Part shown: in pieces, positions 1 to 64,000 of the stretch | How the letters are laid out: each line of letters opens with the position of its first letter | Position numbering within the stretch: position 1 is the first letter of the stretch | Source: Warburgia ugandensis | Lineage: Eukaryota > Streptophyta > Magnoliopsida > Canellales > Canellaceae | Assembly: GCA_035236585.1 (NCBI GenBank) | Contig: CP141135.1 | Coordinates: forward strand, 60,976,190 to 61,040,189 | Direction: 5' to 3' | DNA length: 64,000 nucleotides | The notes under the pieces: model-generated | What the model saw: the letters and a program-made list of their open reading frames with translations, nothing else | What the model was told of the DNA's origin: nothing | The model's database searches: none | Made by a program: the position numbers and the translations under genes

Positions 1-3000
1 TGTTACCATTCTTAGAAGTAGTAAAAGAATTGTGAAAGATGAGCCTCAAAAGACTGAAAAGGTAGAAAAATCTATGAAAGATAAAGAATACTATAAGGAC
101 CCTGTTTCACTTGATGACCCAAGTCCTATACCTACTCCATTCCCTCAAAGGTTGCACCAAGCCTCAAAGTCTATCTCTAACGATGAGATTTTAGAGATTT
201 TTGAGCAAGTCAAGATCAATAGACCGATCTTAGACGCTATAATACAAATCCCATCTTATGCCAAATTCTTAAAAGACTTATGCACCATAAAGAGAAAGCT
301 AAATGTCCAAAAGAAGGCATTTTTTACTGAACAGGTTAGTTTGATTCTTCAACACCATACACCGCCAAAGTACAAAGATCCTGGTTGTCCCACTCTTACT
401 TGCATTATTGGACCCATAGGATTAACCAAGCTCTTCTTGATTTATGATCTAGTGTGAACCTATTACCATACTCAATATACGAACAGTTAGGTCTGGGTGA
501 ACTGAAACCTACTTCTACTACGCTCCAGCTAGTTGATCATTCTGTACAAATACAAAGAGGGGTAATAGAGGATGTGTTAGTCCAGGTAGAACAATTTTGC
601 TTCCCTATAGATTTTCTAGTTCTAAATACACAACCGATGGTCGACCCCTAATTGGGATAAGGTCTTGATGATGATGATGATGATGAGATACACAACCGGT
701 GGTGAATGAGAAGAATGAAATACCAGTCATCCTAGGACGACTATTTTTTGCTATGTCCAATGCCTTAATCAACTGTAGAAATGGTGTCATGAAATTGTCC
801 TTCGGCAATATGACAATAGAGCTAAACATCTTTAACATTTGTAAGCAACCTGGTGAAACTACTGATGATTTGCATAGTGTTAACATGATCAATTCAGTTG
901 TGCAAGATCAATTTCAGTCACCTTTCTTGTTCGACCCACTGGAGGCCTATTTGGCCCATTTTAATGAGTTTAAAGAGGACGTATTAATAGAGGAAGTTAA
1001 CGCCCTCATTGATTCTGTTGCTATCATGGATATAGAAAAATGGAAACCTCATTTCGAGGAACTTCCACCGAGGGAGTCCACTCCCCCTCCATCATCCATA
1101 AAACCTCCTAAGCTTGAATTGAAATCTCTACCATCAGATTTAAAATATGCCTTTTAGGAGACCAAGAGACTTATCTGTAATAATTTCCTCCAAATTAGAA
1201 ACATCTCAAGAGGAAAAGTTAATAGACACTTTAAAAGAACACAAAGGAGCTATAGGATGGACCATAGCTGATATAAAGGGTATTAACCCTTCAATCTACG
1301 CCCATAGGATATATCTAGAGGATGAAGCTAAACCATGTCATCAAATGCAAAGAAGGCTAAATCCTAATATGAAATATGTGGTTAGAGCAGAAGTCTTAAA
1401 GTTGCTTGATGTGGGAATCATTTATCCCATAAGTGATAGCAAATGGGTAAGTCCAACTCAAGTGGTTCCAAAGAAGTCTGGAGTGACAGTAATAACTAAT
1501 GCCAATACTGAATTGATCCCTACTAGGGTTACCACTGGTTGGTGTATGTGTATCAACTATAGAAAGTTGAATTACATTTACAAGGAAGGACCATTTTCCT
1601 TTTGTTGATCAAATGTTAGAAAGGGATGCAGGACATAAACATTATTTTTTTCTAGATGGTTATTTAGGATATAACCAAATAGAAATTGCACTCGAAGATC
1701 AGGAAAAGACAACATTCACATGTCCTTTTGGCACTTTTGCTTACAAAAGAATGCCATTTGGATTATGTAATGCTCCTTCTACATTTCAACGTTGCATGTT
1801 AAGCATTTTTAGTGACATGGTAGAGAGAATTTTAGAAGTTTTCATGGATGACTTTTCTGTTTTCGGTAATTCATTTGAAACATGTCTCGAAAATTAAAGA
1901 AAAGTCTTAATTCGTTGTAAAGAAAAGAACCTAGTGCTTAATTGGGAAAAATGTCATTTCATGGTTCCTAAGGGAATAGTCCTAGGTCACATCGTGTCAT
2001 CCAAACGTATAGAGGTAGATAGAGCCAAAGTTGGTCTAAATACCAATCTACCCGTTTCAAAATCTATTAAGGACATTTGCTCTTTTCTAGGTCATGCAGG
2101 ATTCTATAGGAGGTTCATTAAAGATTTTACTGCAATATCTAGACCATTATGTCACCTCCTCACAAAGGATATTCCTTTTGAGTGGACTTAGGATTGTCAA
2201 AAAGCTTTTATAAAGCTAAAAGACAAGTTGACCACTGCACCTGTCATGCAGCCACCTAATTGGAGTCTACCCTTTGAAATCATGTGTGATGGTAGTGATT
2301 ATGCAGTAGGAGCTGTACTCGGGCAGAGAAAAGAGAAGAAGCCATACGTCATCTACTATGCCAGTAAGACCTTAAATAGCACCCAAATGAACTATTCCAC
2401 TACGGAGAAACAACTCTTAGCAGTTGTCTTCGCATTGGATAAATTCAGGTCTTACTTGGTTGGATCTAAAATAGTCATATTCACTGACCATTCGGCTCTC
2501 AAGTATCTCCTTTCTAAGAAAGATGCTAAGCCTAGACTAATTAGATGGATTCCCTTACTTCAAGAGTTTGATATTGAAATAAAAGATAAAAAGGGAGTAG
2601 AGAATGTGGTAGCTGACCATTTGTCTTGCCTAGTCCTAGCAGAGTCTTTTAGATGAGTTGCTAATTAAAGACACTTTCCCTGATGAGCAACTTTTTCATG
2701 TTTCCCATCCTCCTTGGTTTGCTGATATTGCGAATTATTTAGTTATAGGAAAAATTCCTGAACATTGGACTAAACAAGAAAAGGAAAAATTCTTTTCCAA
2801 TGTTAAGCACTATTTGTGGGATAATCCATACCTATTTAAGTATTACCCATATCAAATTATTCGGAGATGTGTTCCTGAATTAGAACAACATAGTGTCATC
2901 TCCTTTTGTCATTCAGAAGCATGTTGTGGACATTTTTCAGCATAGAAAACAGCTGTAAAGATTTTGCAGTGTGGTTTCTATTGGCCATCATTATTCAAAG

Positions 3001-4007
3001 ACACTCATGTGTTTTGTAAATCTTGTGAGTGATGTCAAAAGTTAGGAGGAATAAACCATAGGAATATAATGCCTTTAAACCCTATCCTTATTATAGAAGT
3101 TTTTTATTGTTGGGGTATAGATTTCATGGGTCCATTTCCACCTTCTTTTGGCTACATTTATATCTTATTAGATGTATATTATGTTTCAAAATGGATTAAG
3201 GCTATCTCATGTAGGCATAATGATCACAAAATAGCTCTTAAATTCTTAAAACAAAATATTTTTTTCTAAATTTGGGACTCCTTGGGCCATTATAGGTGAT
3301 AACGGTGTACACTTTTGCAACAAACCATTTGAAGCACTCATGAAAAAACATAATATAACCCATAAAGTTGCAACACCATATCACCAGCAAACAAGTGGAC
3401 AAGTAGAAGTATCTAATCGGGCCATAAAACTAATCCTTCAAAAGACTGTAAATTCGGATGGTAAAGATTGGTCTCTTCGACTAACTAATGCACTCTGGGC
3501 TTACAGGACTGCATATCGCACCCCGATTGGTATGTCTCCATATTGTATTGTACACGGTAAGGCTTGTCATTTGCCTGTGGAATTGGAATAGAGAGCTTGT
3601 TAGGCTATAAAGACATTTAATTTCAATATGGATAAAGGAAGCTCACATAGAAAACTCCAACTTAATGAGTTGGAAGAGATCAGGGAAGAAGCTTATGAGA
3701 GTAATAGGATATATAAAGAAAAGATGAAAGTTTTTCATGATAAGAACATAATGAGAAAATCCTTTACTCCAAGCCAGAAGGTTCTACTTTACAATTCTAA
3801 GCCTCACCTATTTCCAGGTAAGCTTAGATCTCGATGGACCGGTCCATATATAGTAAGAGAAGTTTTTCCATATGGGACCATCGAGATTGAGGATGCTAGG
3901 ACTAGTCATACTTTTAAAGTGAATGGTCAATGTTTAAAGCCTTTCCTAGAATATGAGAATCTAGAAGTTGAGTCCACAACTCTAGAGGATCTTGTTTATC
4001 AGGATTG
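1..4007 (+). pseudogene. gag-pol polyprotein remnant of Athila-like element
   Basis: The gag-pol polyprotein would supply protease, reverse transcriptase, RNase H and integrase for retrotransposition. Visible landmarks include a protease region around 450-1,000 with a LGELKPTSTTLQL-type stretch and a VILGR motif, and the RT core FAYKRMPFGLCNAPSTFQR followed by FMDDFSVFG. RNase H shows [18 protein letters not shown], and integrase shows DFMGPFPPSFGY and [13 protein letters not shown]. The C-terminal tail has the PSQKVLLYNSKPHLFPGKLRSRW pattern, which is typical downstream of gypsy integrases. The remnant is not translatable as a whole. It is nearly the same in sequence as 40,300-42,920, which is internally shorter. 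Confidence 0.88.
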
Positions 4008-5668
4008 AGTGGATCTCATCCCTGTGTACCATATTTTGTATTTTTTTCTCTGCATCACCCATATTCATTTTAGGTCATACTTTTTAAAACATTGAGGACA
4101 ATGTTTTTGTTAGGTTGGGGGGGTGTAGAATTCTAGCAAATTGTAGTTCTTTTTTAGGTGCTTTCCTTGGTTTTTCAAAAAAAAAAAAAAAAGAAAAAGA
4201 AAAAAATGGAAATTTTTAGGTCATTTCCAATACTATGATGAGAATTGGATTTTCTGAAGGATAATCTTGATAACTTTAGCTTATTAATGGTATTGAGTAT
4301 GATTAATTAATCATTTTACACAATTTCTAAAATATTCTATGAAAGCAAAGTCTTAGATCACATCTGTACTCGCAGTTGCATATAGATAATCTAGAAATCG
4401 TGAAGAAATTCAATGGAGACTTATAACCTAAGAACGTTTTAGAGCCATTCATCCTTTTTGAGAGGTTATAAATGTTCTTAATTTTCTTTAGCGTACTTAA
4501 AGAAAATTGATCCCAAACTCTTAAATTTGGCTAATTACCTGAATAATTAGAGTACTATCTTTAAATTCTGGAAGTTCATTGAATCTGATAGATTATAGGA
4601 AACCTAGAAAATTATTTAGGCCATCCTTGTTGTGAACGTAGAGACATAAAGCCTACCATAAAGTATTTTTACCACTAGTTACCCAAGTTGAGCCTTTTAA
4701 AATAAGCATTTTCTTTTGTCACCCAAATTAACTTTTACCCATATTAACCTAGTATAAATTAACCATTACTGATTTTCTTTGAAAAATAAGTTAGAGAGTA
4801 ATGAAGAAATACCTTTTAGTTGCAATGAAAGTCAAAAAGTGGATATCAAGAAAAGAAATATTCTTCAAAGTGAGTAAAAAGCACTTAAATATAAAGAAAA
4901 GAGTTTGAAGAAAAAAAAAAAAAAGAGAGAGAGAGAGAAAAGAAGAAAGAAGAAGAAGAAGTTTGAAGAATGCAAAGAAAGAGTTGTGAACTTTAGTAGA
5001 AGACCTCTACTTATTTTTTTGAAGAAACTTCGAATACCCTTATACCTTTTCTTTGGTAACTTGTCCTAAGCCTACATTTCGTCCCAGTTAAAGACCTATT
5101 GATTCTAGGATGAATATAGTCTTGATGAGGAAATGAATGGATATGATTTAAAAGAGTGATATTTCTAAATATTCAAAGGTAACGGCATCCATTCCAAAGG
5201 GATCAAAACAATTACATTCCTTAGTAACTCCCGTTCTTCATGAATATATGTGAGATAAATTTTCTTTTATTAACTCTTCTCATATAATTAAAAGAGAGAT
5301 ATGATTTGAACCCTCTATCTGAGAGATTTTATTTTTGAGTGTATGCCATTAGTAACGGTTGAGGTCAAAACATATTTCACATGGAGTTCAAAAGTTAGAA
5401 GTTTACTCAGAGATAAAGATTATTCTATGTGTAGACTGTACGCACACACACACACACACTCACTATGAGATATGAGCTTAACTAGAATATTTTTAGCATA
5501 TGGATAGGGTTTAGAATTCTTCAGTCATCTTTATTAGTATGCTAAAGTGGAAAGATTTATTGAAGATAATTCCCTGAAGAAAGTGGAGATCACCTAAAAA
5601 AATATAAAAAATTTGAGTTGATTTTTTTGCATCTTTTACTAGGGACTAGCAAAATGCTGTTTGGGGGG
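4008..5668 (+). other. 3' noncoding region of forward element, with polypurine tract
   Basis: About 1.66 kb without credible coding lies between the pol tail and the LTR, as is usual for Athila-type elements. It holds A- and AG-rich runs near 4,178-4,205 and 4,910-4,960, a CA microsatellite at 5,443-5,459, and ends in TTGGGGGG at 5,661-5,668. That run directly abuts the LTR and is the likely plus-strand primer (polypurine tract). A second G-run sits near 4,118. The region is repeated at 24,150-25,158, 33,752-35,459, 42,921-44,584 and 63,074-64,000. Confidence 0.75.
5443..5459. repeat. (CA)n microsatellite
   Basis: A CA dinucleotide run within the 3' noncoding region of the element. The same site carries runs of different length in the other copies: 24,921-24,952, 35,212-35,251, 44,353-44,373 and 63,844-63,871. 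Confidence 0.9.
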
Positions 5669-7706
<2,038 letters not shown>

Positions 7707-8799
7707 CTTTTCTTTCATTTTCATTTTTTTAATCTCTTTTAAAGAATATTTCTTTTCTCAATATTCACTTTTCTGCTCTGATTGCAACTAAAAAGTATAT
7801 TTTCATTCATCTCTAACTTATCTTTTGAAGAAATAGGTAATGGATATATTATAGAGGGTTAATATGTGTTAAGATTAGTTGTGTGAGAAAAGAAAGAGCT
7901 TATATATTAAGGCTCAAATTGGCTGACTAGTGGTAAAATTATATTTGAGTAAGCTTTATGTCTGTATGTTAACAAAGATGGCCTAAATCATTTTCTAAGA
8001 TTTCTATAATCTATTGGATTCAATAAACCTTTAGAACCTCAAAGATAATACTCTAATCATTCTAGTAGTTACTCAAATTTGAAAGTTGATGGGATCAAGT
8101 TTCTTTAAGCACGTTGAAGAAAATTAAAAATATTTATAACCTGTCAGAAGGAATGACCAGCTCTAAAGCTCACTTAGGTTATAGGTCTCTATTGAATTTC
8201 TTCAGGATTTTTCAGTCATAACTACTTATCACTTAGACTATATACATGTAGTTGTGTATACAGAGATGATTTGAGACTTAGCTTTCATGAAATACTTTAG
8301 AAAATAAGTAAAATGATGAATTAATCATGTACAATTCTATTAATAAGCTAAGGATGGTAATTCAAGATTAGGCTTTCAGAAAATCCAATTCTCATCATTG
8401 TATATGAAATGTCCCGTTTTCTTTTCTTTTCTTTTTCTTGTTTAATAAAAAAATTTAACAAAAACTTAAATATACTAAAATTCTACAGCCCCAACCTGAT
8501 AGAAACAATGTCCTCAATGTTTAAATAGTATGAACTAAAATGAATATGGGTGATGTATAGGAAACAAAATACAAAATATGGTACAAAGGGATCATATCCA
8601 CTCAATCCTGATAAACAGGATCCTCTAGAGTTGTGGACTCAACTTCTAGGTTCTCATACTCTAGAGTTGAGGTTTCCATTTTTCTGTATCCATGATAGGA
8701 ACAGAATCAAAGAGGGAATTAACTTCCTCTATTAATGCATCCCCATTAAACTCATTCAAATGGGCCAAACAGGCCTCCAGTGGGTCTAACAAAGAAGAC

Positions 8800-11300
8800 G
8801 ACTAAAATTGATCTTGCACCACTGAATTGATCATGTTAACATTATTTAAATCATCCATAGTTTCACCAGGTTGCTTACAAATGTTAAAGATGTTTAGCTC
8901 TAATGTCATATTGCTAAAGGACAGTTTGATGACACTATTTCTATAGTTGCTTAAGGCATATGACATACCCAAAAATGCTCGTCCCAAGATGACTGGTATT
9001 TCATTCTTCTCATTCACCACCAATTGTGTATTTAGAACTAAAAAAATCTACAGGGAAGCAAAATTGTTCTACCTAGACTAATACATCCTCTATTACCCCT
9101 CTCAGTATTTTTATAGAATGGTTAGTTAGCTGGAGTGTAGTAGATGTAGGTCTCAGTTCTCCCAGACCTAACTGTTCATATACCGAGTATAGTAATAGAT
9201 TCATACTAGATCCCATATCAAGCAAAGCTTGATTGATCTTATGGTTGCCAATAATGCAAGTAAGAGTGGGGCAACCTAGATCCTTGTATTTTAGTGGTGT
9301 ACGATGTTGAAGAATAGAACTCACTTGTTTAGTAAAAAATGCCTTCTTTTGCACATTGAGTTTTCTTTTTGTGGTGTATAGGTCATTTAAGAATTTGGCA
9401 TATGATGGGATCTGTTTTATTGCATCTAAGATTGATATGTTGATCTTGACCTACTTGAAAACCTCTAAGATCTCATCATTGGAGGCAGACTTTGAAGCTT
9501 AACTCAACCTTTACGTAAATGGGGCAGGGATAGGACATGGGTTGACATGTGAGGTAAGGTCCTTCTATTTAGACTTTTCTGTGACCTTAGTGGACTTTTC
9601 TACTTGGTCAATCTTTTAAGGTTCATCCTTCTCAATTCTTTTATCACTCAAAAGAATGGTGACAGTCTTGGTCTGTTTTATAGTAGAGCTGGATAATGCT
9701 TTACGGACATTAGTGTTAATCGCATGCATTGTCTTAGGATTTGCTTGTGGTTAAGCTGAAAACTTTTCTTTTTCCATGTTTCACATCATCTGACTCATCA
9801 TATTTTCTAACACTTTCATAAACTTTTCTAATTGAGAAATTTTCCTCTCCTAATTTTAAAGTATCTGATTATCCTCTCCATGCATTTTGGATGGGGGATA
9901 TATGGTGAAGGAGCAGGATTTTGATGAGCTTAGTAAGATAGGGTAAGGAGTCCTTAATTTTGTTGATGAGGCAGGTACATACCTGATTGTGAAATATTAA
10001 TTTTGTTGATGAGGTAGGAATGGACCTGATGTGAAATATTTGTTGTGGGTCCATTTCTCCAATTGAAGTTAAGGTGGTTTCTCCAATTGAGATTGTATGT
10101 TTTAGAAAAGGGGGAAAAAGGTTGCTTATAAGAGTTTAGGGAATTTATCTATTCATGAAGTACATCTTGAAATGCTGGTATTGTTGGGCATTCATGAGTA
10201 ACGTTTACATCACTCTCACAAATACTGCAAACCTGTTCGATCTTCATGGAGGCAACTTTCACCATTTCTATGGCCTTTACTTTTCTAGTAAGGGAGGTTA
10301 TCTTTGCATTTATGTCATCTTTTTCATTCAAGGAAAAAATACCTCCCTTAGAAGATGTGGTGGGCTTTGTTCTATCTGAATGATCAATTCTTTCTAAATC
10401 AACCCAGGTGTGCGCACTCTCAACTAACCATTCTAAGTACTCTTGCTCTTCTTCTAGTTTTTTTCTTAGGAAATTACCATTGTACATCGTTTCTACAAAC
10501 TAACGCATATCAGAGTTTAATCCTTCATAAAAGAAGCTAATAATGTGCCAAGATTCATATCCATGCTTTGGACATGTTAACAACATATCTTTGAATCTTT
10601 CCCAGCATTGATAGAAGCTCGCTTTGTCATTTTGGGTGAAGATCATAATCTTTCGGCGAAGAGTGTTGGTTTTATGAGTTGGGAAGAACTTTTTCAAGAA
10701 CTCCCTTGTCATGTCTTGCCAGGTTTGTATTGAACCTGTTGGTAGCATATTGAACCACATCTAAACTTTTTCCTTTAAAGAGAAAGGAAAAAGCTTCAAC
10801 CTTACCATATTTAATTTGACATTTTGTGTGCGCTGTGTAGTACACACTTCATCGAATTTTTTAGGTGTAGGTAAGGACTTTCACTGTCCAACCCATGATA
10901 TTTTGGGAGTAATTGAATTACTCCCGTTTTTAGCTCTATGGTATCCACATTTTGAGGTAGAATGACACAAGATAGCGTACTTGTATGAGTTGGTTGAAGA
11001 TAATCCCTTAGTGTTCTACCACAAGGGTTTTGATAAAAATCATTATCTCTATGGTCACTCTATTGGTCCCACTCTACATTTTCATTTCTTCTCCAGTTCC
11101 TAAGGTTGGTGGATGATTATTCCTCTTTAGCAGAGGTTGATGCTCTTCATCTATTAGAGGTGGTGGGTCCTCATTCATAAGGAGCGTGGGGCCCAGATCT
11201 CCTCTAACACTACATAGGGGTGAGTTATCCCTTGATCTTTATTCAATATTTGAATGAATTAGTTATATGTTGTTTTTGACTAAATGTCCAGTTTTATTGC
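8800..11300 (-). pseudogene. gag and protease remnant (reverse element)
   Basis: Gag forms the virus-like particle and protease cleaves the polyprotein. On the minus strand, 10,760-10,500 reads as a gag core with TWQDMTREFLKKFFPTHK and SFYQCWERFKDML, typical of the plant retrotransposon gag domain. 10,487-10,149 continues with a cysteine/histidine cluster (CSICES...) resembling the nucleocapsid zinc knuckle. 9,354-9,073 carries the protease region with ALLDMGSSMNLLLYSVYEQLGLG, and 9,023-8,802 carries VILGRAFLGMSYAL. The frame is interrupted several times. A near-identical copy lies at 47,720-50,220, and the protease part recurs at 31,126-31,727. Confidence 0.82.
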
Positions 11301-12471
11301 ATGTTCATAAGTGCATACAACATGGATTCTTTTTTGTTTACCTAAATAATTTTAAATGCTAATGATAGGGCACAAAAATTCAAACACCTCAAAGGCCAAG
11401 AAGTAGACAATTTGATTATCTCAGAATTGTGTTGGGGAGAAGCTTTTAGATTAGCCTAATCTAATGCCCCTCCTTTCTTTCAGACTTGTCCTACTGCTTA
11501 CTAGTTAGATCCTACCTAACCAACCACTTCACAGCCTCCTCAGTTAGCCATAGGTAGTCTAAGTCATAGAATGTGTTGACAGAGCTAGTCGTTTAAAAAC
11601 CAGCGTAGTAGGTTAAATGGGGGCCACTAGGGTGGCAATAGATTGCCTCCTTCCAAGAGGGTCCCATTAGCATATGGTGGGCCTTATAGGTCTCTTCTAG
11701 TTGATTTTAAATTAAATTGGAAGGTTGGGATATGTGCTTGTAGTGATTATCTTAGGTGGGCCAAGAGGTGGTGATGAAATTCACCCTTGATTTTGTTGGG
11801 TTGCGTTCCCTTATTAATTAATTTTTCCATTCTATGACAATTCGGTCAACATATAATCACCGTAAAGCATTTAAATATGCCCTAAAAATGCAATAAAAAT
11901 TAACAACTAATGAAAACATTAAAAATGCACCATATATCGAATGTATTCTATAAGATTTTTATACAAACAACTAATGCAATTTTAATCTATAATGCACAAC
12001 CTAAACTAAAACTTTTAAGGGGTTTAGAAATTTCTCACATGGGTCCTAAAAAAAAATCTTCTCGTACAAGGGTGGGACCATTTACATTCCACCTCAACTT
12101 TCAGGTTACAATGGTCCACCCTTAACATGTATTATTACAGCCTTTTAAATTAACTATGAAAATAAAAAATAAATTATATTAAATCCTCACTATAATTCAC
12201 TCAAAATAAACTACAAAATCCTAATTAAACTCCTTAAATTTCTTCTTTCTTTTCCAAATTTCCTACAAAATAAGAAATTATCATAAGTACTAAAAATTAG
12301 GAGACATTAAATTTATGAACTAACAAAATTTTAAAATGCACCTAATTTGCCTAAAATGTTAAAACAATGCAACTCCTAAAATTTTTGAAATTTTATATTT
12401 TTTTAAAATTTTATATATTTTTGAAAATTTTTATATTTTTTGATTAAAATTTATGAAAACACCATTGTGGG

Positions 12472-12489
12472 TCCTCGGCAATGACACCA
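12472..12489 (-). other. Primer-binding site, tRNA-Asp-like
   Basis: On the minus strand this reads TGGTGTCATTGCCGAGGA, six bases inside the LTR edge. It differs by about four bases from the TGGCGCCGTTGCCGGGGA-type site, complementary to the 3' end of tRNA-Asp, that is usual for Athila and many plant gypsy elements. It fixes the element's orientation and the LTR boundary at 12,496. Confidence 0.75.
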
Positions 12490-12495
12490 AAAACT

Positions 12496-13632
12496 TGTTG
12501 ATATTTTTCGCAAGTGCACGACTATTGTAGTTTAGCTAGTACAGGTCCAGGTCAATTTCCACAGGGACTCGACTTAATTTTTGGAGTTTACACAAATTTT
12601 AATTATAAATTAACAAAATAACATTCAAATTGATTAACCCATGAGTACAATGTTCTAAATTTAATTAAAATTAATTACAATAATAATCCAAATACAAATT
12701 TCGCACCCTGATCGTTGTGTCATGCAATGAATCATAACTGAAATTACTTCTCCTAGAAACTAATATGAGAATAAAGCTAACTTAGATAAAGTAAAATATG
12801 GATTAAAAAAACAAAATAGGCTACAAGACAAAACAGGACATGAAAGTAATTTGGATTTTTCACTGAGGTCATTTTTTGGAATTTTTTCTATTTTTTGGTT
12901 TTAAACGAAAACCAGATGAAGAGAAACCCCACGGAGGGGGCCAGAGGAAGGAGGAACAAGGGAAACAAGAGAGGGAAAAGAGGAAAGAGGGCTGGCCAGA
13001 GGTGGGGAAGAACACAAGAGCAGAGGAGGAATTGGGCAAAGCAATGGAGAGCCACTACTGGGGCGGTCGGTGAAGAGAGGTGCTAGCTAGACTAGCATGG
13101 AATGCGATGGAGAAACAAAGAGAGAGGTGTAATGAGAGAGAGAGAGAGTGGTCAGAGGTTGGTGTCGGAGATGATCTAGGAGAGAAGGGGAAATCTGGGT
13201 TGCCAGAGAAGATCTGGGAGAGAAGGGGAAATTTGAGTTGGTTATTGGCGCCGATGGCAGAGCTATCGTGTAGGTGATTTGGGCCGGCTAGTGATGCTAG
13301 GAGGAGGAGGATAGAGAGAAGAAAGGGAGAGAAGAGGTGTGGAAGGGGGTCGGTATCTGGCTGGTAAGAGAGAGATAGACAGACAGAGGAAAGAGAAGAG
13401 GGTTCTAGGCGGCGCTGGTTTAGGCTACCCAGATGGGTTTGGGCAATGATGGAGAAAGCCGACAGGCAGAGGCTTTAAAAGAGCATTTATTGATAAAGTG
13501 ACTTGTAAAAGATTTTTTTGGTTTTGATCTATAGGGTGGGGTACAATCCAATGGGCTTTGAAATTTGTTTCAAAACATCCAAAATTCCATTGGGTTGTTG
13601 TTTGAACAATCAAACTAACCCTAGTTAATGCA
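12496..13632 (-). repeat. 5' LTR of reverse element, ~1,137 bp
   Basis: On the minus strand it starts TGCATTAAC and ends ATCAACA, immediately before the primer-binding site. It contains a CGTGCACTTGCG stretch near its 3' end, equivalent to that of the 2.0 kb LTR. The stretch 12,910-13,400 is almost pure purine on the plus strand, hence pyrimidine-rich in the element's own sense, and shares a CTGGCC core with the larger LTR. The outer end (13,632) is inferred from the TG...CA rule and from identity with 51,418-52,554. No matching second LTR of this type is in the window. Confidence 0.7.
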
Positions 13633-51417: not shown

Positions 51418-52554
51418 TGTTGATATTTTTCGCAAGTGCACGACTATTGTAGTTTAGCTAGTACAGGTCCAGGTCAATTTCCACAGGGACTCGACTTAAT
51501 TTTTGGAGTTTACACAAATTTTAATTATAAATTAACAAAATAACATTCAAATTGATTAACCCATGAGTACAATGTTTTAAATTTAATTAAAATTAATTAC
51601 AATAATAATCCAAATACAAATTTCGCACCCTGATCGTTGTGTCATGCAATGAATCATAACTGAAATTACTTCTCCTAGAAACTAATATGAGAATAAAGCT
51701 AACTTAGATAAAGTAAAATATGGATTACAAAAACAAAATAGGCTACAAGACAAAACAGGACATGAAAGTAATTTGGATTTTTCACTGAGGTCATTTTTTG
51801 GAATTTTTTCTATTTTTTGGTTTTAAACGAAAACCAGATGAAGAGAAACCCCACGGAGGGGGCCAGAGGAAGGAGGAACAAGGGAAACAAGAGAGGGAAA
51901 AGAGGAAAGAGGGCTGGCCAGAGGTGGGGAAGAACACAAGAGCAGAGGAGGAATTGGGCAAAGCAATGGAGAGCCACTACTGGGGCGGTCGGTGAAGAGA
52001 GGTGCTAGCTAGACTAGCATGGAATGCGATGGAGAAACAAAGAGAGAGGTGTAATGAGAGAGAGAGAGAGTGGTCAGAGGTTGGTGTCGGAGATGATCTA
52101 GGAGAGAAGGGGAAATCTGGGTTGCCAGAGAAGATCTGGGAGAGAAGGGGAAATTTGAGTTGGTTATTGGCGCCGATGGCAGAGCTACCGTGTAGGTGAT
52201 TTGGGCCGGCTAGTGATGCTAGGAGGAGGAGGATAGAGAGAAGAAAGGGAGAGAAGAGGTGTGGAAGGGGGTCGGTATCTGGCTGGTAAGAGAGAGATAG
52301 ACAGACAGAGGAAAGAGAAGAGGGTTCTAGGCGGCGCTGGTTTAGGCTACCCAGATGGGTTTGGGCAATGATGGAGAAAGCCGACAGGCAGAGGCTTTAA
52401 AAGAGCATTTATTGATAAAGTGACTTGTAAAAGATTTTTTTGGTTTTGATCTATAGGGTGGGGTACAATCCAATGGGCTTTGAAATTTGTTTCAAAACAT
52501 CCAAAATTCCATTGGGTTGTTGTTTGAACAATCAAACTAACCCTAGTTAATGCA
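51418..52554 (-). repeat. 5' LTR of reverse element, second copy, 1,137 bp
   Basis: Same length and termini (minus strand TGCATTAAC...ATCAACA) as 12,496-13,632, with the purine-rich plus-strand tract at 51,832-52,325. Confidence 0.7.
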
Positions 52555-55500
52555 TTTTGATCTTATTTAAAGCAAATTGTTGTTCTTGGATTTGTTTCTT
52601 CTTTTTTGATTTTGTTACTTGTTTTGACTTTTCAAAAGAAAAAATTATCCTATTTGTATAACTAGTTTTGGGATGTAAGATTTTTTCAATCAAATTACAT
52701 GCTTTTGGTGCAAACATTCCAACTCAAGAATAAAAGAAGACTTCCTTTCTAGCTATACATACTGTCATAGTGTGTCAATTAGACAGAAACTCTTTATATC
52801 TACTATTAAAACCATCAAAGTGTATAGCCTATATCCCCCATTTTTGTGCTAGTGTTCCCAATTTGGAAATGAAAAGAAAAGTTATAACAAATAGAAACCC
52901 AATACGTTTTTTTTTTTCGCTATTAAATTTGTAGCTTTTATCCAACTGAAGAATTGAAACAAGTTCCTCTCTTCTAGCTACACTGACTAAATCATGTGTG
53001 AATTCCTAAGAGACCCTTTACATATACTAGCAAGACCATCCAAATATGCAACCAATCAACCACCCCTTTTCATGATGACAGTGTTTGTAGATCTAAGTCA
53101 TTTATCATGTTCAGAATGGCTTAGATGGACTAGATAACTAATTTTATCCCAAATGAGTTGTTTTAGCCAATTGATCCTTTGGTAAAATGTAAAAACCATC
53201 CATATTCATTTTATCTTTCAAAGAGCCAAAGAAGATAGTTAAGATCACCCAAATGCATTGATGTCGCTTGGCCTACTTAATTTCTATAAGCTAAACACAG
53301 TGACCGGCTTAGATATTCAACCAAAACCTCTATGGGTAGCGTCTACTTCTTAGGATGCTTGAGTGCCTACACCTATCACGAATCAAAGGGATAGAGCAAC
53401 AAACCATTACCTGTTGCGTGAAAGAGAAGAGAAAGTTTGCAAAAGAGAAAGTTGTTGGGTGGAAGAAGCCAGCTGATGTATTATGAGATGAAGTAGTAGT
53501 AAAAGGCTGTAATGGTTTTGTTGCAAAAGAAACTATAATTGTAGAATCATAATTTTAATGAAGTTATGACGAACTAAGAGGCTTGAGACTTTAATTTGGG
53601 GTAGCAATATATGCACCCCTTGTCCTTCCACATGAGTCCGTCTATAATTGTAGATGGGCCTAGATATTGAAAGATCCTAGTCATCAATAATATTTTCCTT
53701 GATTTAGATGAGCTATGCTCTAAAATTCTCATCCATGAGATCATCCTAACAATTACTGTTATTGGTTCTTAAATAAGAAACCTGGAAGAAACTATGATCT
53801 TCTCTAGCTTTAGGAAGCTGTAGAGATTTTTAAAGAGAGAGGCTCAATTTTCTTCTGAGCTTTTCAAGATAGAAAAGATAAAATGAGGAAACAAAGAGTA
53901 AAAATGATAAATTCTAAGTATTCATTTGGATTTGTCTTAGACAAAGTAACTTTAATGATCTTAACTTGCCTTTTTTTATAGATCTTAAGTTGTTCAACAT
54001 GTTGGGCATGACTTAAAGTAAGTGGAAAAATTCATGCCCATTAGATAATTCATCCCATATTTTTAAAGTGAAAATTGCATCCATACTTTAGTACATGTTT
54101 CTTTAAGTTAAGAATCAAAACTAAGAAAACACAGGTAAAGTATCAAATGGGCACGAAATTTGTTAGTTAGCATATCTAAGTCGTCATTTCCAAAATGATG
54201 AGTGGTTTAGATCTACTAAAGAGGCAAGTAAAAGTCTCTTGCCCTCAAACAAATCCAAGAGCACACTTGAATTATGATTCCTCGACAAAGAGAGACATTG
54301 AGGATTGCCATGGAATGTTATACAAACACATCTATGATCACACCTTGTATCTATAGCCTATAAGAGTGTAATGACATGGGTTTTTATAATACATTTTTGT
54401 AATTCTTTTTGAAGTGTCAGGCCCTAAATAAGGCAAGTTATGATGTAATGATCCAAACATTTTATGCTTTTACTAAAATTGGAAATTAATATATATATAT
54501 ACTAAATGTTTTAATTTATTTAAAATAGGAAATAAAAGAATTTGTGAGAAATCTTTATGTCATTAGATTGTACGCTCAAAATGGAATCCAACGCCTCGGA
54601 AAACGCCGAAAACGGAGTTCGTATGACCAAGTTATGACATGTTAAAGATAAGGGGCATTTTTATAAAATGCATTTAAACACAAGACTTTCATAGTCTTGT
54701 AAGAGTCAGTTCAAAGCATGAAAGGAATTCACACTACCTTTAACTCTTTTGTTTGCAAAATCTAAGCTGTTCATCATGTCTAGAGCACAAAAATCAGTAA
54801 ATTGCAAGAAATCAATGACTTTGGATGATCCTAACCGCTTGTTTTTTTGAATTAAAACTAAAAAAATTCTATGGTCATGATTTTCAGCTCAAAGAAAAAT
54901 AGGCTAAAGACATCTAGTGAACATGAAATCTTATTTTTAGCCTATCTAAGTCATTCTGAGCATGGTGAATTGTTTATATCTACAAAACATTATCATTATG
55001 AATGGAAAAAACATAGCATGGACTCCTACCAGCACTCGTGTTCATATTTGATGGGGAAGAAACCCACCAAAGATGTAGCTGTTACATGAGATTTTTTGTA
55101 GTCACTCATTTTAAGGGCTGCAAATCCGATAAAAGATACAAATTCGGGATTGGTTATAGTTTCGTGTGCATGTATCTCTGCACACATTCCATGCTCAACT
55201 ATGACTTCTTAATCGTTCAACTATTAACAAATGCTAGAACTGAAGGTCTCATAACAGTTAATTAGATGGAGACGAATTTTTACGCTTCTGTGCTCAATGA
55301 TCAACCATGCAGTGATAGGGAATGCTAAAAGGATGCCCTGTATAAGGAGTCGTCTCTCAACTAGGTCGTGTGTCTAACTTTTATAAAAAACTAAGGCGAT
55401 CCTCACAGAACAAATCATTCCTCAACTGGAGTCGACTTGTGTTAATGGTCATTCCTAAACTGACAACTTAGGATCCCTTGTAAGTACCAAAGAGAAATGC

Positions 55501-55916
55501 TGGTATACAGCGTGAGAACACCCTAACGGTGATGCAACTCCACTTCTGTACTGTGGATTCTAATACCATTGATCCAGGCCATACATCTGGCTTCCCTAAC
55601 TTCGGATATCTTTTGGTGTAGAATCATGCTAAAAGGGTAGTTTTAGCATCCAAGAAATGATGCTTTCATCTTGTATTCAACAACCTATAACACAATTTGT
55701 TTGATAATACTAAATTTCTTTTGATATGATACACCAACTTTCCACGTTACGAAATACCAACTCAAAAATATCATTTGTTAATTATGCACAAGATCCTTAA
55801 TCTTACGTATTCTGGTACAAAATTAATTAACCACATTCATATCCTCCAATCAGAAGCTTTGACGTCCTCCTGCACGTTGTGAACAAAAGATTTGCCCTCC
55901 AGAAGAAGATTTCATT
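52555..55916. other. Gene-poor spacer upstream of terpene synthase 2
   Basis: Copy of 13,633-16,992, again without a convincing gene. It contains the diverged repeat pair at 52,720-53,086. Small differences from copy 1 include a single base near 52,783 and AT-repeat length near 54,492. Confidence 0.7.
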
Positions 55917-55966
55917 CACGTGCACACTCTCTCTCCGTTTTATATATGATGTAGGAGAGTATAAAT
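55917..55966 (+). promoter_or_regulatory. Terpene synthase 2 core promoter: G-box and TATA box
   Basis: CACGTG at 55,917-55,922, TATATAT at 55,941-55,947 and TATAAAT at 55,960-55,966. The first ATG is at 55,996. Sequence identical to the first copy, so both genes should respond alike unless chromatin differs. Confidence 0.55.
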
Positions 55967-55995
55967 CATCAATAAGTTCTAGCGGCTTATAAAGT

Positions 55996-58985
55996 ATGGC
56001 TCTTTCTGTCCACTTCTTCTCCGGCCCTTGCTCCCTACCTTCCAGTGAGAGCTAGTAGACACGTTAACATGACTATGCGCGTTAGATGCAACCTAAGCAC
56101 TGAACAGATGGAGTCAGCTACTACTCGGCGATCGGGAAATTACCCAAAAAGCTTTGGAGATTATGATTTCATTCAGTCACTAAAGAGTGATTATAAGGTG
56201 GTTGTCAAAATTTTTATTATTTCACCATCGTTGCGTTTTGCACTGCATGTTAGCTAACTCGCCGCTTCATTATGCAGCTTGAAATGTATGAGACAAAACT
56301 CGAGGAACTGAAAGAAGAAGTGAGGTCTTTGCTCAGAAGAACGAATGGACTCATAGATCAGATGATGCTGATTGATACAATTCAACGCCTAGGAGTGGGA
56401 CATCACTTCAAGAAAGAGATCAAGCAAGCATTAACTACCATGTCCATTGATGATAACAACAAGAAGATCAAGCAAGATTTATATGCTACGTCTCTCCGAT
56501 TTCGTCTCCTCCGGCAACATGGGTTCGTCGTCTCACAAGGTAAATGTGTTCACGAAACAAGTAAGCTTAGTAAAACTGTTAGTATGCCTAAAATTTTTAT
56601 GTTTGTGTGAGACAGACGTTTTTAATGAGTTCAAGGATGAGAAGGGTGAATTCATGGCATCCCTTTGCGAGGACATAAAGGGACTATTAAACTTGTATGA
56701 GGCTTCATACCTTAGTTTCCAAGGGGAGACTGTCTTGGACGAGGCAAGAGCTTTCTCAGTCATGCATCTCAAGGATCTACAAGGAAACACAACCCCACAA
56801 ATGAAAAGACAAGTGGAGCATGCATTAGAGCGTCCCTACCATTGGAGGATGATAAGGTTAGAGGTTAGGTGGTATATTGAAGCATATGCCGAGGACGAGG
56901 ATATGAACCCTTTGTTATTTGAGCTGGCTAAGTTGGACTACAACATGGTGCAAGCTCTATACCAGAGCGAGGTTAAACAAATGGCGAGGTACGTGCATAA
57001 AATGTTAAATCCCACGGTGGTAAGGTGAAATTTGTTTGGGTAAATCTGTGCGTACTTGAGTTTATTTTTTCAGTCTTTGTGTCGATGTATATAAAAGAAA
57101 AAAGGGCAGCCCGGTGCAAGAAATTTCGGTAAATAAAAGGCTGGGGAATTTGCAGACCACAAAGGTTCATAGTATATGCAGCCTTGCCTTGCATTTTTGC
57201 AAGACGCTGTTTTCATACCTCAAACTAGTGACTTCAAGGTCACGCGATGACGACTCTATAGCAGTAAATATTTCATTTCCTCATATATAAATGAACTTAT
57301 TTTTCTGTTGAAGGTTAATTAGACACACACATCCTGAGCAGTCTCGAACCTGCGGCTTGCCACGGGGCAGGCTCCTCATGTATAATTGATTGGACCATCA
57401 TCGTGCTTCACCATGGTGCATCAGGATAGGATTTTGATCGCTCTTTCACTAAATGTATGCTTGTACGTGGCACAGTTTAAACACTTGAAACCTCAACTCA
57501 GCTAGCAAGTGACCTGAGTCAAGTTCACCGGAGTAAATTGTTCCTCCAAAACCGAGTCTGGTTTCCAAAAAATTTGTTTGATATGTTAACTTTACGCAAA
57601 ATATGTTATTGCTATGTATAGCATTTTGGATAGGCCAGCGGGTTAGGGTGTTTTGAGTGGCTTGTAGGTCTGGCAAGTTTTAAACTATGGTTTGTGGTGG
57701 TCCCTAGTTGGGTTACAACTGCTGTTATGTCTTGCAGGTGGTGGAGGAATGTGGGTCTACACAAACACTTGACTTTTGCAAGAAGTCGTCTGATGGAGTG
57801 CTTCTTGTGGGCAGTCGGATTTATCTCCGAACCCGAGTTGGGACATTCTAGACGAGGGCTTGTAAAAGTAGGTCAGCTTATAACAACCATTGATGATGTT
57901 TATGACATTTATGGTTCGCTAGAAGAATTGGAGCTCTTCACAGATGCTGTTGATAGGTGGGTTGGCCTTTCTATTTTCAAGTGTTCACTAGAAAGCCTTC
58001 AGTGATCAAGAGACATATAAAATGCCGTTCTTTTACTCTCACGATCAGGCAGTTGATTGATCTCTGTGGCTTTTTGTTAGGTGGGATGTCAAAGCCATGG
58101 AAAAACTTCCACAATACATGCAGATATGTTTCCTAGCACTCTTCAACTCTGTAAACGAAATGGCTTATGACACCCTAACTGAACAAGGATGGGAAATCAC
58201 AGGGCATCTAAAGAGAGGGGTATCGTATCTGCACCCTTCCTTGTCAAAGTTAATTTTCTCTACGATGATATGAATTTCTAATTCTATATTGTGGGTTGTT
58301 TCTTTGATGCAGTGGGCAGAGTTGTGCAAATCTTATCTTATCGAGGCAAAATGGTATAAAGAAGGATACATACCAACACTGGATGAGTACCTAAACAATG
58401 CCTGGATTTCAATTGGAGGGCCAGTCCTATTTATTAGCACCTATTTCTTCATCAAACCAAAGATAACAAAGGAGTCGCTAGAGTTAATAGAAAGCACCCC
58501 AACTCTCATACAATACTCATCAATGATTTTGCGCCTTTGCGATGATCTAGGGACTTCACTGGTACGCAAGAAATTATCCATAGGGTTTACCATAATCCGT
58601 TAATTTTTCTCAACCTTTATGTGTTTAGAGATTACATTTTCTAACTACTAATTGCATTGCACATTTTCCCACAACATAGGCGGAGCTAGAAAGAGGCGAT
58701 GTTCTCAAAGCGAAGGAATGTTACATGCATCAAACAGGCACTTCTGAGGCAGTTGCTCGTGAACACATATGGGGTCTCATTGACGAGTTATGGAAAAAGA
58801 TGAATAAAGAGTCGTTCTCTTGTTTACCCTTCCCTCGTTCTTTCATCAATGCTGCATGGGATCTTGCTCGGATTGCTCAGCTATATTACCAAAATGGCGA
58901 TGCATATGGTAATCCAAACGATGAGACTAAGGAGAGAACCATGTTACTCATAGCCAAACCCATTTCAGTGATGTGTAATAAGTAA
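55996..58985 (+). CDS. Terpene synthase, TPS-b class (copy 2), seven exons
   Basis: Exon plan and translation match the gene at 17,072-20,061 throughout. Exons: 56,069-56,197 (from the in-frame ATG), 56,278-56,539, 56,616-56,988, 57,738-57,956, 58,081-58,219, 58,313-58,561 and 58,680-58,985, encoding 558 residues. Metal-binding DDVYD (307-311) and DDLGTSLAE (451-459) are kept, so class I terpene synthase chemistry on a prenyl diphosphate is possible. It shares both oddities of copy 1: the leader opened at 55,996 is out of frame with the body, and RRx8W has glycine for tryptophan. These changes therefore predate the duplication. Identity of the two coding regions argues for a very recent event, gene conversion, or an assembly duplicate. 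Confidence 0.88.
57096..57283 (-). mobile_element. tRNA-derived SINE (Au-like) in intron 3, second copy
   Basis: Same SINE as 18,172-18,359, antisense in the third intron, with GCACCGGGCTGCCC near its 3' end and possible TATATAAA flanking repeats. Carried along by the large duplication rather than a new insertion. Confidence 0.7.
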
Positions 58986-59035
58986 TTAAGTTGGTTTTTG
59001 CTACTGATTGGCGTTACCAGATGGTAGTTGGATAT

Positions 59036-59041
59036 AATAAA
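59036..59041 (+). terminator. Poly(A) signal of terpene synthase 2
   Basis: AATAAA about 50 bases past the stop, as in copy 1. Confidence 0.45.
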
Positions 59042-59821
59042 TTAAACATTTTCCCGTATATGATACTTCTACTTTTGTTTTGTTTTGTTTTTCTTCTTCT
59101 TCTTCGTCTTCTTCTTCTTTTCTCTGTGTCTAAAGATTAGATTGAATTTAGATACAACTTCATGAACATTTTAATTGTGGTTAACCATTCTGATTGCATA
59201 TATATTCATATTATTTGTTTGAAAATTTTATACAAAAACGGTGAATTAATAAAAAATAATATGATGTGGATGGGCTTCATGGAGCGACTAACATAATTTA
59301 AATTAAATGAAAAATGTCATGAAGTAGTGCACTTACATTCCAAGGAAAAGTATCATGTGACAATCATTAATCTATACTGACCTTGCTTGGTAGTCATACT
59401 CAAATTAACAATCAATGACAAATCAAGTAACTTGGGTCTTTTTATTTACTACATTTACCAATTGCGCTATGCTGAAGGTACTTAAACTATGAAAACCCTA
59501 ATTTTTTTGGAATTTTTTGGAATTTTTTTGAAATTAATTAAAATTTTCACAAAAATTGAGGTAAAATATTGAGTTTAATATATATTAATTTTTAGAAAAA
59601 GAATCAAGTATTGAGTCATAGATATTTGGTATTATTTACAGAAAACCCTTCAGAATGGCTGAAAGCATGTTGAAATCTAAGCTCGGGTGAAAAAGTCCTA
59701 TTTTTTTTTATAATTTTTGATAAATTTACATTTACCTATAAGTGTAAAATGGTCATGTCACTTTTATGTGGGGTCTAGAAGAGTTGGGTAAGCTGGTGGA
59801 CAGCCGGCTCATAAAATATCA
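59042..59821. other. AT-rich spacer downstream of terpene synthase 2
   Basis: Copy of 20,118-20,899; no gene seen. CTT-rich run near 59,090-59,125. Confidence 0.6.
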
Positions 59822-62800
59822 ATGATGAGGAATAAACATGATAAAGAATATGCTTTGAATTTTACAAGAAAAGTAAAAATTCATTTAAAATTAAAAACAA
59901 TTAAAAATAATATTAAAATAATCATAACTTTACACTATAAATATCCCTCCCCTACTCCCACGAAATTTCACAAACTCTATGGAACTTCCCCCTCCCTTCT
60001 CTCCCCTCTTTCCTTTTCTTTCTCTCGTCTCTTTCCTTTTTTCTTTTCTTTTTCTCTATCCTCCCTTTACTGTGGCAGAGCATGTCTACAGACGCACTAG
60101 AGGGAATATTCCATCATGGAATGTCAAGCCCGTCTGCGGACTAGTCGTCTCGACGGAATAGGGTTTTTCGCTGGAAAACTCTAAATCAATTAGCCGTTGC
60201 CTATGGACCATTGGAATCAAATCTTGACTGTTGGATGGCGTTAGGCTGACATGATCTATCAAAGCCCTAAGATGTCAATTTGATCAGATGAGTTTTCAGC
60301 GGTGAAGTCCCCAGAAAACAGTACCTCCAGCGACATATATTTTTTAGGCATGGATCTCTTTTTTTGGCTTGATTTTTTTGCTCTGGACACTTCAAGTACG
60401 GGCACCTCATCCCAGTCTATCTAGTCCGGCACTTTTCCAAGCCTTAGGATTACCAGACTGGATTTTCTGGCATGATTTTTTTGCCGAATCCAATACCAGT
60501 GATACAGGTGAAAAACACCTATAAACGTAATTGATTGAGAATTCTGAACCATTGATGGATTCAAAGGGTTCCAAAACCCCAGGGAATGAAATCTAGGAGG
60601 TCAGATCATCCAGATATGAGAGATCTAGGAAAAACTGATCTGACAATCCAAATCAAACCATCTCGACTATCCCAGGTCACCCACCCCATTCCATCGACTA
60701 CCCCAGGTGGAATGCGGCTGGGACAGGTTGCCGCTTGACATCGATCTGAGGACCCAGATTGAATCTGGTCCCCTGTTTGATTTGAAATCTTAAAATTTCA
60801 ATTAAGTGCTCATTTTAACTCCAAATCAATATCAGAAAGAAGCTCTAGATTCCTGATAAATATTAGAATCTAATGGAACTATAAATTTATGTGTTATGCA
60901 TTGTAAAATTCTATACAAAAAGAGGTACTAATTCCCAAGATTGGTCAAATCTGACATGATCAGATCTTGGATTCCTAATCCATTAGTGATCTAGTGATGA
61001 GGGAACATAGAATCAAGGGTTAGATGTGACTCATCTGAAATGAATTAAGAAATTTCACGTTAATAGAAGAGAAATCTTAAAAATAGAACATAGATCTACT
61101 TGATCTAAGTAATCAAGCATGATCAAAAGCTATAAAACAGCATGGATGGTGATCTAAGGATGAGATCATGATAAATCAATGGCCTAATACGGCTAATTTG
61201 GGATGGATTGAAATCTATGCCCCTGAATTTGATGAATTGACTTAAGATCTTCTTGATCGAATGGATCAAGAAAGATTAGATCATATGATGAGATGCATCA
61301 ATGATCTAGGGATGATATCACATTAAGAGAATGTCATAGATCTGAATAAAAATGAAAGATCAAGATCGAAACCCTTAAGGGGATGAAAAATGAATAATAT
61401 GATCAATGGATCAAAATGAATAGATAAGATGAATTCAAATGATCGTGTAAATTATTAATGTAAATATTCTTTTATTTGCTTAGTAGATGTTAAATTTATT
61501 TATTCATGCTTTAATTGTTCATTGTTGTGAAAATTACATGAAAAATATAATTAAATAAAAATAGATATTGATGAACATTTATAATGCATATAGACATGGA
61601 CTTAATGATAGTAAGGGCTATAGTTAGTAAGATAATATAAGGAATATCATTTCCTTGGCTCAAAATTATGAGAATAATAAACCCTATGAATGAAATCTTA
61701 AATGTTCATGGCTTTAATTAAAATCAAATAGCAAGGGTACCTAGGGTTTGATGCTTATAGGAACCTTATGAAGGTTGAGTTAAGGTCAAACCAGTGAATA
61801 CTGAACATTGTAAGTCTTCTCACTCATTTATTTTCTAGATTAGGGTTTGCATTTAGAATAATTTTGCATTGGTTGTTAGTTAATTAAATATAGAAACATA
61901 CTTTATAATTATTGCATTTTAGGGTTTGCATTAGTTTATTGCTTTCAATTGCATTTAGGACATGTTTAATGCTTTAAGGTGATATATATAGTGATCGAAC
62001 TGCCATGGAGTGTGAAATTCATTAGTAAGGGCACCTTACCCCTATAAGATCAAGGGTGGATTTTATCACCACTCTTTAGCTCACATAGGATAATCACCTC
62101 AAGCGTGCAACCACGCCATTCACATTAATTTAAAATCAATTAAAAGAGACCTATAGGGTCATCACATGCTCATAGGTATAGGGTCATCAAATGCTCATAG
62201 GACCCTCTTAATAGGACATGATTTACTGTTACTCTAGTGGCTTTTGATCACTGTGGTTATTGGGGGTTGTCTAATAGAGCCTCGCTCTTCCCCCACCTCC
62301 TGTTGACGTTTGTGAGGTCTAGCGCCTCCTTACACGAGGGTTGTATTAACCGCTTTGGTTAGAACCTAAATGGTAAGCAGTAGTCAACTCCTCAAGAGAG
62401 TAGGAGCATTAGAATAGGCTAATTAAAAGCATTGTCCCCACAGAAAATAAAAGAAATCAAAATATATATGCTTGTTAGCCTTAGGGGATTGCTTGATTGT
62501 GTACTCGATTGTGCATCATTCTAGGCATTTAGGTTGCATCATTTAGGATAATCTTATTTATTTTTATTTTTAATTAAAAAAAAAGGAAAAGAAAAAAAGA
62601 TCTTTCATTGTATGCCCTTTTGGATACGTGACAAAACTGGTAGGTTAGTCTCATACGACAAAAAAGACAGACCAACAATGACTAATCAACGATCAAGGGG
62701 TAATTCACCCCATGGTAGTGTCAGAGGTGATCGTGGTCATCCACTCATCATGAATGAGGACCCAACGCCTCTAATTGATGATGAATATCAACTTCCATTA

Positions 62801-63073
62801 AGGAGGAATATTCATCAACAAAGAAATTGGAGAAGGAATGGAAATAGGGAATGGGACCAACAAAGTGACCATGGAGATAATGATGTTTATCAAAATCCTC
62901 ATGGAAGGACCTTAAGAGACTACCTTCAACCTACACGCACTAGTACGCCATCTTGTGTTATTCTTCCTCAAAATGCTGGTGCGTTGGAATTAAAAACAGG
63001 AGTAATCCAATTACTTCCCAAATTTCATGGGCTAGATAGTGAGAGTCCTTATTTGCATCTTAAAATAATCCTT
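59822..63073 (+). mobile_element. 5' part of a forward gypsy element, second copy
   Basis: Duplicate of 20,900-24,150: TATA box CTATAAATAT at 59,935-59,944, pyrimidine-rich run (59,985-60,065), leader homologous to the reverse element from about 61,950, 25-base tandem repeat near 62,143-62,192, then a gag fragment. LTR edges not resolved. Confidence 0.6.
62612..63073 (+). pseudogene. gag N-terminal fragment, second copy
   Basis: Translation matches the fragment at 23,690-24,150, ending LLPKFHGLDSESPYLHLK before passing into 3' noncoding DNA. Fossil. Confidence 0.75.
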
Positions 63074-64000
63074 TTCTTTTGTCACCCAAATTAACCTTTA
63101 CCCATATTAACCTAGTATAAATTAACCATTACCCATTTTCTTTGAAAAATAAGTTAGAGAGTAATGAAGAAATACCTTTTAGTTGCAATGAAAGTCAAAA
63201 AGTGGATATCAAGAAAAGAAATATTCTTCAAAGTGAGTAAAAAGCACTTAAATATAAAGAAAAGAGTTTGAAGAAAAGAAAAAAAAAAAAAGAGAGAGAG
63301 AGAGAAAAGAAGAAAGAAGAAGAAGAAGTTTGAAGAATGCAAAGAAATGTAGAAAAAGAAATATTCACTTCAGCAAAAGGAAAGAAAGAGTTGTCAACTT
63401 TAGTAGAAGACCTCTACTTATTTTTTTGAAGAAACTTTGAATACCCTTATACCTTTTCTTTGGTAACTTGTCCTAAGCCTACATTTCGTCTTAGTTAAAG
63501 ACCTATTGATTCTAGGATGAATATAGTCTTGATGAGGAAATGAATGGATAGGATTTAAAAGAGTGGTATTTCTAAATATTCAAAGGTAACGGCATCCATT
63601 CCAAAGGGATCAAAACAATTACATTCCTTAATAACTCCCATTCTTCATGAATATATGTGAGATAAATTTTCTTTTATTAACTCTTCTCACATAATTAAAA
63701 GAGAGATATGATTTGAACCCTCTATCTGAGAGATTTTATTTTTGAGTGTATGCCATTAGTAACGGTTGAGGTTAAAACATATTTCACATGGAGTTCAAAA
63801 GTTAGAAGTTTACTAAGAGATAAAGATTATTCTATGTGTAGACTACACACACACACACACACACACACACTCACTATGAGATATGAGCTTAATTGGAATA
63901 TTTTTAGCATATGGGTATCATTTGGAATTCTTCAGTCATCTTTATTAGTATGCTAAAGTGGAAAGATTTATTGAAGATAATTCCCTGAAGAAAGTGGAGA
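63074..64000 (+). other. 3' noncoding region of shortened forward element (runs off window)
   Basis: Matches 24,151-25,076, with an AG-rich run near 63,275-63,325 and a CA microsatellite at 63,844-63,871. By collinearity, its LTR should begin about 80 bases beyond the window end. Confidence 0.75.

Follow-up and report, generated by a model that had tools for sequence, protein, structure and literature searches.

A probable recent duplication carrying a terpene synthase gene between opposed retroelement fragments in the Warburgia ugandensis genome assembly

In the genome assembly of Warburgia ugandensis (GCA_035236585.1; 1.1225 Gb in 14 contigs), a stretch of 64,000 nucleotides on contig CP141135.1 (hereafter the window; C10:60,976,190-61,040,189) holds two near-identical segments in the same orientation, copy A and copy B, each with a terpene synthase (TPS) gene. 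Does this pair reflect a duplication on one chromosome, or are the copies two alleles of one locus that the assembly has laid end to end? All our comparisons were made on the assembled sequence of this one assembly, and they lead us to regard A and B as most likely a genuine, recent segmental duplication; a very young tandem amplification of the gene among related retroelements, as proposed in an initial annotation, is the best reading. The sequence examined extended 40 kb leftward and 160 kb rightward of the window, and no N was found within the window or across -39,999 to 129,986. Coordinates are those of the window unless a contig is given.

In order to define the pair, the edges of near-identity were located by self-comparison and by base-by-base alignment (Table 1). 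Self-comparison gave 99.4% identity both for 447-2,536 against 40,601-42,690 and for 3,769-25,079 against 42,681-64,000. The initial annotation had described a near-identical duplication of about 38.9 kb, with a collinear match of the left 25,076 bases. The pair is indeed present, but the figure of 38.9 kb corresponds to the repeat period (40.2 kb when measured left of a 1,242-bp deletion) and the segments themselves are shorter. The left edge of near-identity lies at 446/447 and 40,600/40,601 rather than at base 1; outside it, 1-288 and 40,315-40,602 are only 93.75% identical. Copy B lacks 1,242 bp that copy A carries near 2,537-3,768, as measured by the difference of alignment offsets. Nor does the pair end at position 64,000, where it had been bounded: copy B overshoots the window by 8.8 kb, and near-identity stops at about 33,850 and 72,771, beyond which divergence is about 5%. 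The blocks between 25.2 and 40.2 kb, previously described as related to those in the copies, are so related, but up to about 33.85 kb they belong to copy A itself.

Table 1. Features of the duplicated pair and its surroundings (window coordinates)
Feature	Position	Strand	Remarks
Copy A	447..33850	+	33.4 kb; right edge approximate, ~33,700 to 33,851; from self-BLAST and alignment to copy B
Copy B	40601..64000	+	runs on past the window to ~72,771 (C10:61,048,960); 32.2 kb overall
Left join of copy B (spacer gag fragment to copy B start)	40600..40601	+	2-bp (AT) overlap, 160 bp out of register
Deletion breakpoint in copy B	42681..42690	+	AAGCC at both ends in copy A
Spacer between the copies	33851..40600	+	most of R3, reverse-strand pol fragment, gag fragment
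Perfect 48-bp tandem duplication	39530..39625	+	in reverse-strand pol fragment of the spacer; possible join scar
TPS gene, copy A	17145..20061	+	7 predicted exons, 558 aa from internal ATG
TPS gene, copy B	56069..58985	+	letter-for-letter identical to copy A, introns included
Upstream ATG	17072..17131	+	frame other than that of the TPS; 19 codons to stop, ends before 17,145
R1	4697..8664	+	repeat block of ~4 kb
R2	24138..28154	+	related block
R3	34425-38425		related R block
Further related R blocks	43610-47585, 63060-67077, 73353-77343
Join, reverse gag to forward gag	31731..31739	+	7-bp filler; matches copy C 2304 and 16994
Second such join	40222	+	<=1 bp overlap; matches copy C 419 and 17890

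The two copies differ by substitution at 179 of 32,156 aligned sites. The claim of very few noncoding differences holds for the total, but the differences are unevenly spread: 117 of them fall in the 7,995 sites of two R blocks, 40 of these in one CT tract that is a pure CT repeat in copy A, and only 62 fall in the 24,161 sites outside (0.26%). In bins of two kb, the 12 without R sequence ranged from 0 to 0.49%; once R blocks are included, the bins at 6-8, 8-10 and 26-28 kb reach 3.41, 0.70 and 1.50%. From 13,862 to 20,456, a region of 6.6 kb around the gene, there are no A/B substitutions and a single 2-bp indel at 15,566. The TPS gene lies within an exact match of 4,887 bp (15,567-20,453), and its modelled span from start to stop is the same 2,917 bp in both copies, so the identical translations reported initially extend to every letter of the gene. 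The longest stretch free of any difference is 4.9 kb, short enough for long reads to distinguish the copies. If 2.5e-9, 6.5e-9 or 1.3e-8 substitutions per site per year are assumed, values not fitted to this plant, the 62 differences in 24,161 sites correspond to ages of about 0.51, 0.20 and 0.10 million years. The CT tract of copy A is a pure (CT)53 at 6,548-6,653, where the other five of the six compared R blocks have ordinary sequence of similar length; it may have arisen by expansion together with deletion, or the pyrimidine-rich sequence may have caused a sequencing artefact.

The absence of substitutions across 6.6 kb is what would be seen if the assembler had laid down the same molecules twice. 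Against such a loop stand the 62 differences outside the R blocks and the 1,242-bp deletion confined to one copy. A third, more distant copy (copy C, C10:61.276-61.296 Mb, 95-98% like A and B) served as outgroup over 8,668-24,142: among 27 A/B differences, 13 were derived in A, 13 in B and one was unassigned, and A and B each differ from copy C at 340 of 15,143 sites. The even split and the equal distance to copy C indicate that neither copy is error-laden or looped. A loop or copy error was rejected on this ground, and we consider it scarcely credible.

A more serious alternative, rightly raised in the initial annotation, is that A and B are two haplotypes of one locus joined in one contig, perhaps at the 48-bp repeat of the spacer. 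A divergence of a fraction of a percent is compatible with it, and so is the repeat itself, which is perfect and occurs nowhere else in the genome (its 40-bp centre word is found once at <=3 mismatches, and the duplication is absent from three compared paralogous stretches). The surroundings of the copies, however, speak against it, and more strongly than the comparison of divergence with a control locus given below. To the left of A lie a gag piece, then an R-like block and, about 18 kb further left, another TPS gene; to the left of B lie R3, a reverse-strand pol fragment and a gag piece 6% different from that of A. On the right, the sequences following A and B differ by about 5%, with 94.7% identity (5.3% different) between 35,736-39,577 and 74,676-78,491. 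The flanks on both sides are therefore more diverged than the copies, which argues against alleles, since these would be expected to remain close on at least one side. Moreover, no gap separates A from B, and the overlap of 2 bp at the left join is too small for an overlap-based misjoin there. A 34-bp word across that join has a single occurrence in the genome at <=3 mismatches.

The same contig offers a control. Two arms of 37.2 kb and 37.0 kb, at 92,787-129,986 and 130,487-167,509 (C10:61,068,976-61,143,698), start 20 kb right of the end of copy B, match each other, and both end exactly at a 500-N gap (129,987-130,486). Between them, 567 of 36,821 sites differ; across 19 two-kb bins, divergence ranges from 0.40 to 4.39% (median 1.0%). 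A gap between duplicates on the same scaffold is given as one signature in an account of false heterotype duplications (PMC9516828). The 37-kb pair shows that signature, and by its sequence it is probably a false duplication of the assembly, made of alleles left unmerged where two contigs end; A and B, in contrast, have no gap between them and more diverged flanks. The A/B mean outside R (0.26%) lies under all 19 control bins, though single A/B bins reach 0.49%, and the non-R bins differ from the control bins with p = 5e-6 (Mann-Whitney; bins not independent). This comparison argues against A and B as ordinary alleles, although a single unannotated control locus cannot settle the matter; divergence alone was for that reason not accepted as proof.

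Several observations weigh against a genuine duplication or complicate it. Alleles, too, could be as little as 0.26% apart where diversity is low. Only one locus served as control, its comparison with A/B excluded the R blocks, and A/B bins with R sequence reach the control range. Within the right flank, the stretch 38,503-39,577 shows 97.4% identity to its counterpart, a divergence of just 2.6%. The perfect 48-bp repeat sits in the spacer, where the scar of a join could be, and the assembly has retained the false-looking 37-kb pair nearby. Finally, near-identity does not extend to 33,851-40,600 and its counterpart, so that this is no textbook tandem duplication. Still, the gap-free join, the diverged flanks and the contig-end control weaken the explanation by haplotypes, which we consider improbable. 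The edges, junction letters, divergences and third copy can be read directly from the assembly; from these we infer that A and B are not alleles.

How, then, could the duplication have formed? Unequal crossing-over between homologous retroelements, the mechanism initially proposed, finds some support in the edges. The right edge is in register and falls inside an R repeat of about 95% similarity, and the left edge falls within homologous gag pieces. The left join, in contrast, is no in-register homologous junction. In addition, a single in-register event between homologous retroelement blocks (non-allelic homologous recombination) should have left identity up to 40,600, but identity stops at about 33,850, 6.7 kb short of the period, and covers 33.4 kb of a period of 38.9-40.2 kb. 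The original edges could have been obscured by deletion and conversion afterwards; nevertheless, a one-step crossing-over as the source of the genuine duplication seems unlikely to us. Copy B might instead be a genuine second copy produced by ectopic long-tract conversion or break-induced replication, which overwrote an older unit about 5% diverged. Identity that begins and ends abruptly, with about 5% diverged and, on the right, collinear sequence outside, is in keeping with overwriting, as is a shorter ectopic conversion tract among the R blocks. However, 33 kb would be very long for a conversion tract and the left join is not homologous, so that this course also appears quite improbable.

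We favor a tandem duplication in several steps. A unit of about 40 kb (447 to 40,600) would have been duplicated in tandem through end-joining or template switching at the 2-bp microhomology; recombination between R repeats would then have shortened the right end of the second unit or put other sequence in its place, and a later deletion at AAGCC would have removed 1,242 bp from copy B. Since then, the repeats, and perhaps the genes too, have exchanged sequence by gene conversion. The exact order of tandem duplication, R recombination and deletion in copy B is put forward tentatively.

Evidence for such exchange was found among the R blocks. In the tract 26,815-27,388, R2 is closer to R3 (3 differing sites among 574) than to R5, the block that is its own duplicate (20 among 573), and a run of 20 consecutive sites gave a permutation p of 0.0025. 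These values support an origin of the R2 tract by ectopic conversion. Whether R3 was copied into R2 or the R1 type into R5 is ambiguous, because within the tract a single difference in 572 sites separates R1 from R5. Around the gene, the picture is less clear. From 13,863 to 20,455 there are 0 A/B and 81 A/C differences, as compared with 27 and 259 outside (Fisher p 0.0013), but divergence from copy C is likewise lower in the gene region, so that gene conversion as the cause of the A/B identity there is suggestive only. Between A and C, differences number 7 in 1,677 exon sites and 10 in 1,240 intron sites, as against 47 in 1,934 and 69 in 3,504 in the two flanks; the divergence of the introns from C is lower than that of either flank (p 0.0005 and 0.004). 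Purifying selection as the cause of the low gene divergence is unsupported by the codons, which show 5 nonsynonymous and 2 synonymous differences. Since this low divergence from C extends to the introns, conversion centred on the gene is suggested rather than coding constraint. We found no paper on a terpene synthase with interlocus gene conversion, but the search was limited and says little about the literature at large.

Copy C also reveals what neighbouring units have apparently lost. It consists of reverse-strand pol and gag, the TPS gene, and forward gag and pol. In comparison, the join at 31,731/31,739 skips 14.7 kb that holds the TPS gene in copy C, and since the same join occurs in copy B at about 70,652, it is older than the duplication. 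The join at 40,222 skips 17.5 kb that likewise holds the gene in copy C, and its end points differ from those of the first. A third such join, with a 2-bp overlap measured against copy A, lies outside the window at 78,638. Three neighbouring units thus appear to have lost the TPS gene through separate deletions, its former presence in them being deduced from the layout of copy C.

The gene that was duplicated is, by domains and motifs, a plant class I terpene synthase. Its predicted exons in copy A (17145-17273, 17354-17615, 17692-18064, 18814-19032, 19157-19295, 19389-19637 and 19756-20061) are separated by six introns, all GT...AG. The translation matches PF01397 (N-terminal domain, E 3.1e-55) and PF03936 (metal-binding domain, E 2.4e-88), and the closest PDB structures are isoprene, sesquisabinene and limonene synthases. 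Class I terpene synthases carry the motifs DDxxD and (N/D)DxxS/TxxxE, and both metal-binding motifs are intact here, as DDVYD and DDLGTSLAE. RRx8W near the N-terminus is a frequent feature of the TPS-b subfamily (monoterpene/isoprene type) and no absolute criterion; in our translation the RR is present but the position of W is taken by G. The description as a volatile-terpene gene is only in part secure: it agrees with both domains and with the metal-binding motifs, but it has to accommodate an upstream start codon that is out of frame.

This start codon marks what is probably a broken leader. Near 17,117, the sequence differs from that of paralogues by 11 bp, which sets the upstream ATG apart from the TPS frame, and no in-frame plastid leader was found in the three copies: the ATG is out of frame in A and C, and B is identical to A. 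Two paralogues have extra bases near the leader, one at about -23,345 (C10 ~60.953 Mb) and one an inverted copy at about 217.5-218.1 kb (~61.194 Mb); three exon-1 stretches of these two run in frame from the matching ATG toward the enzyme. In a genome search, only A, B and C had exon 1 at 100% without length change. Among 14 other long exon-1 matches, nine are 11 bp longer (net) and five are longer by 9, 3, 3, 44 and 15 bp; the frame was read in the two named paralogues only, and five additional short matches were left aside. The inverted paralogue (C10:61,193,729-61,194,306, minus strand) carries exon 1 twice, one stretch with a premature stop. In the lineage of A, B and C the leader, which was probably a plastid transit peptide, has probably been lost, and since the upstream start codon does not share the frame of the enzyme, plastid targeting has probably gone as well. 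We speculate further, and hold the scenario as a whole to be doubtful, that this lineage is at present being amplified and homogenised, that an 11-bp deletion removed its leader, that translation restarts at the internal Met after a 19-codon upstream reading frame, that the enzyme is cytosolic, possibly sesquiterpene-making and selected for dosage, and that opposed retroelement arms repeatedly delete and duplicate the gene. Changes of compartment through gain or loss of the transit peptide have been described for TPS enzymes, in the material of one study mainly for the TPS-a subfamily (PMC6593445). Similar to those cases, the predicted enzymes of A, B and C are without the in-frame N-terminal leader that two paralogues have kept.

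In a wider view, the window is by its sequence part of an older, unstable tandem TPS cluster flanked by oppositely oriented long terminal repeat (LTR) retroelement fragments. On C10, about 13 groups of TPS exon matches are spread over 60.586-61.467 Mb; others lie on C7, C14, C4, C12, C11 and C3 and at one additional place on C10, all counts from the genome search being lower bounds. On C7 (7.43-7.54 Mb) and C14 (14.937/14.953 Mb), TPS groups show several equal-score matches at even spacing, which suggests more near-identical TPS duplications in the same genome. Among the retroelement pieces, RVT_1 was detected in 40841-42049, RT_RNaseH in 2192-2653 and rve in 28417-28932 (minus strand); five of the eight scanned pieces, including gag and integrase C-terminal pieces, gave no domain match. 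The Ty3/gypsy order of reverse transcriptase, RNase H and integrase was found, assembled from two related aligned elements, and we tentatively assign the pieces to the Athila lineage. Single-base indels separate the copies in the pol sequence at 1,151-1,577, where the frame is broken in copy A; in copy B, it is open over 403 codons at 40,841-42,052. The centre of the R block is probably an LTR, because a block 88% similar to it lies directly upstream of gag, left of the window. In the TPS paralogue at C10:60.953-60.958 Mb, an R piece of 77% similarity (-21,044 to -20,279) lies after exon 3 and before exon 4.

If the duplication is genuine, it is at an early stage: its two edges can be read alongside a third copy and several cases in which the same gene was apparently lost, so that a single locus would allow births, deaths and gene conversions to be counted for a gene of specialised metabolism. 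If it is false, the TPS copy number is overstated in this assembly, and the 37-kb gap pair nearby suggests that such errors occur. In angiosperm genomes, tandem TPS clusters are well known, with many genes and fragments in less than 1 Mb, near-identical neighbours and gene loss nearby. The locus described here shares all of these features, and the duplication is probably of an ordinary kind, with nothing beyond known TPS clusters. It differs from them in that the unit is bounded by opposed retroelement arms, and in that the joins left by gene loss can be read at the level of single bases.

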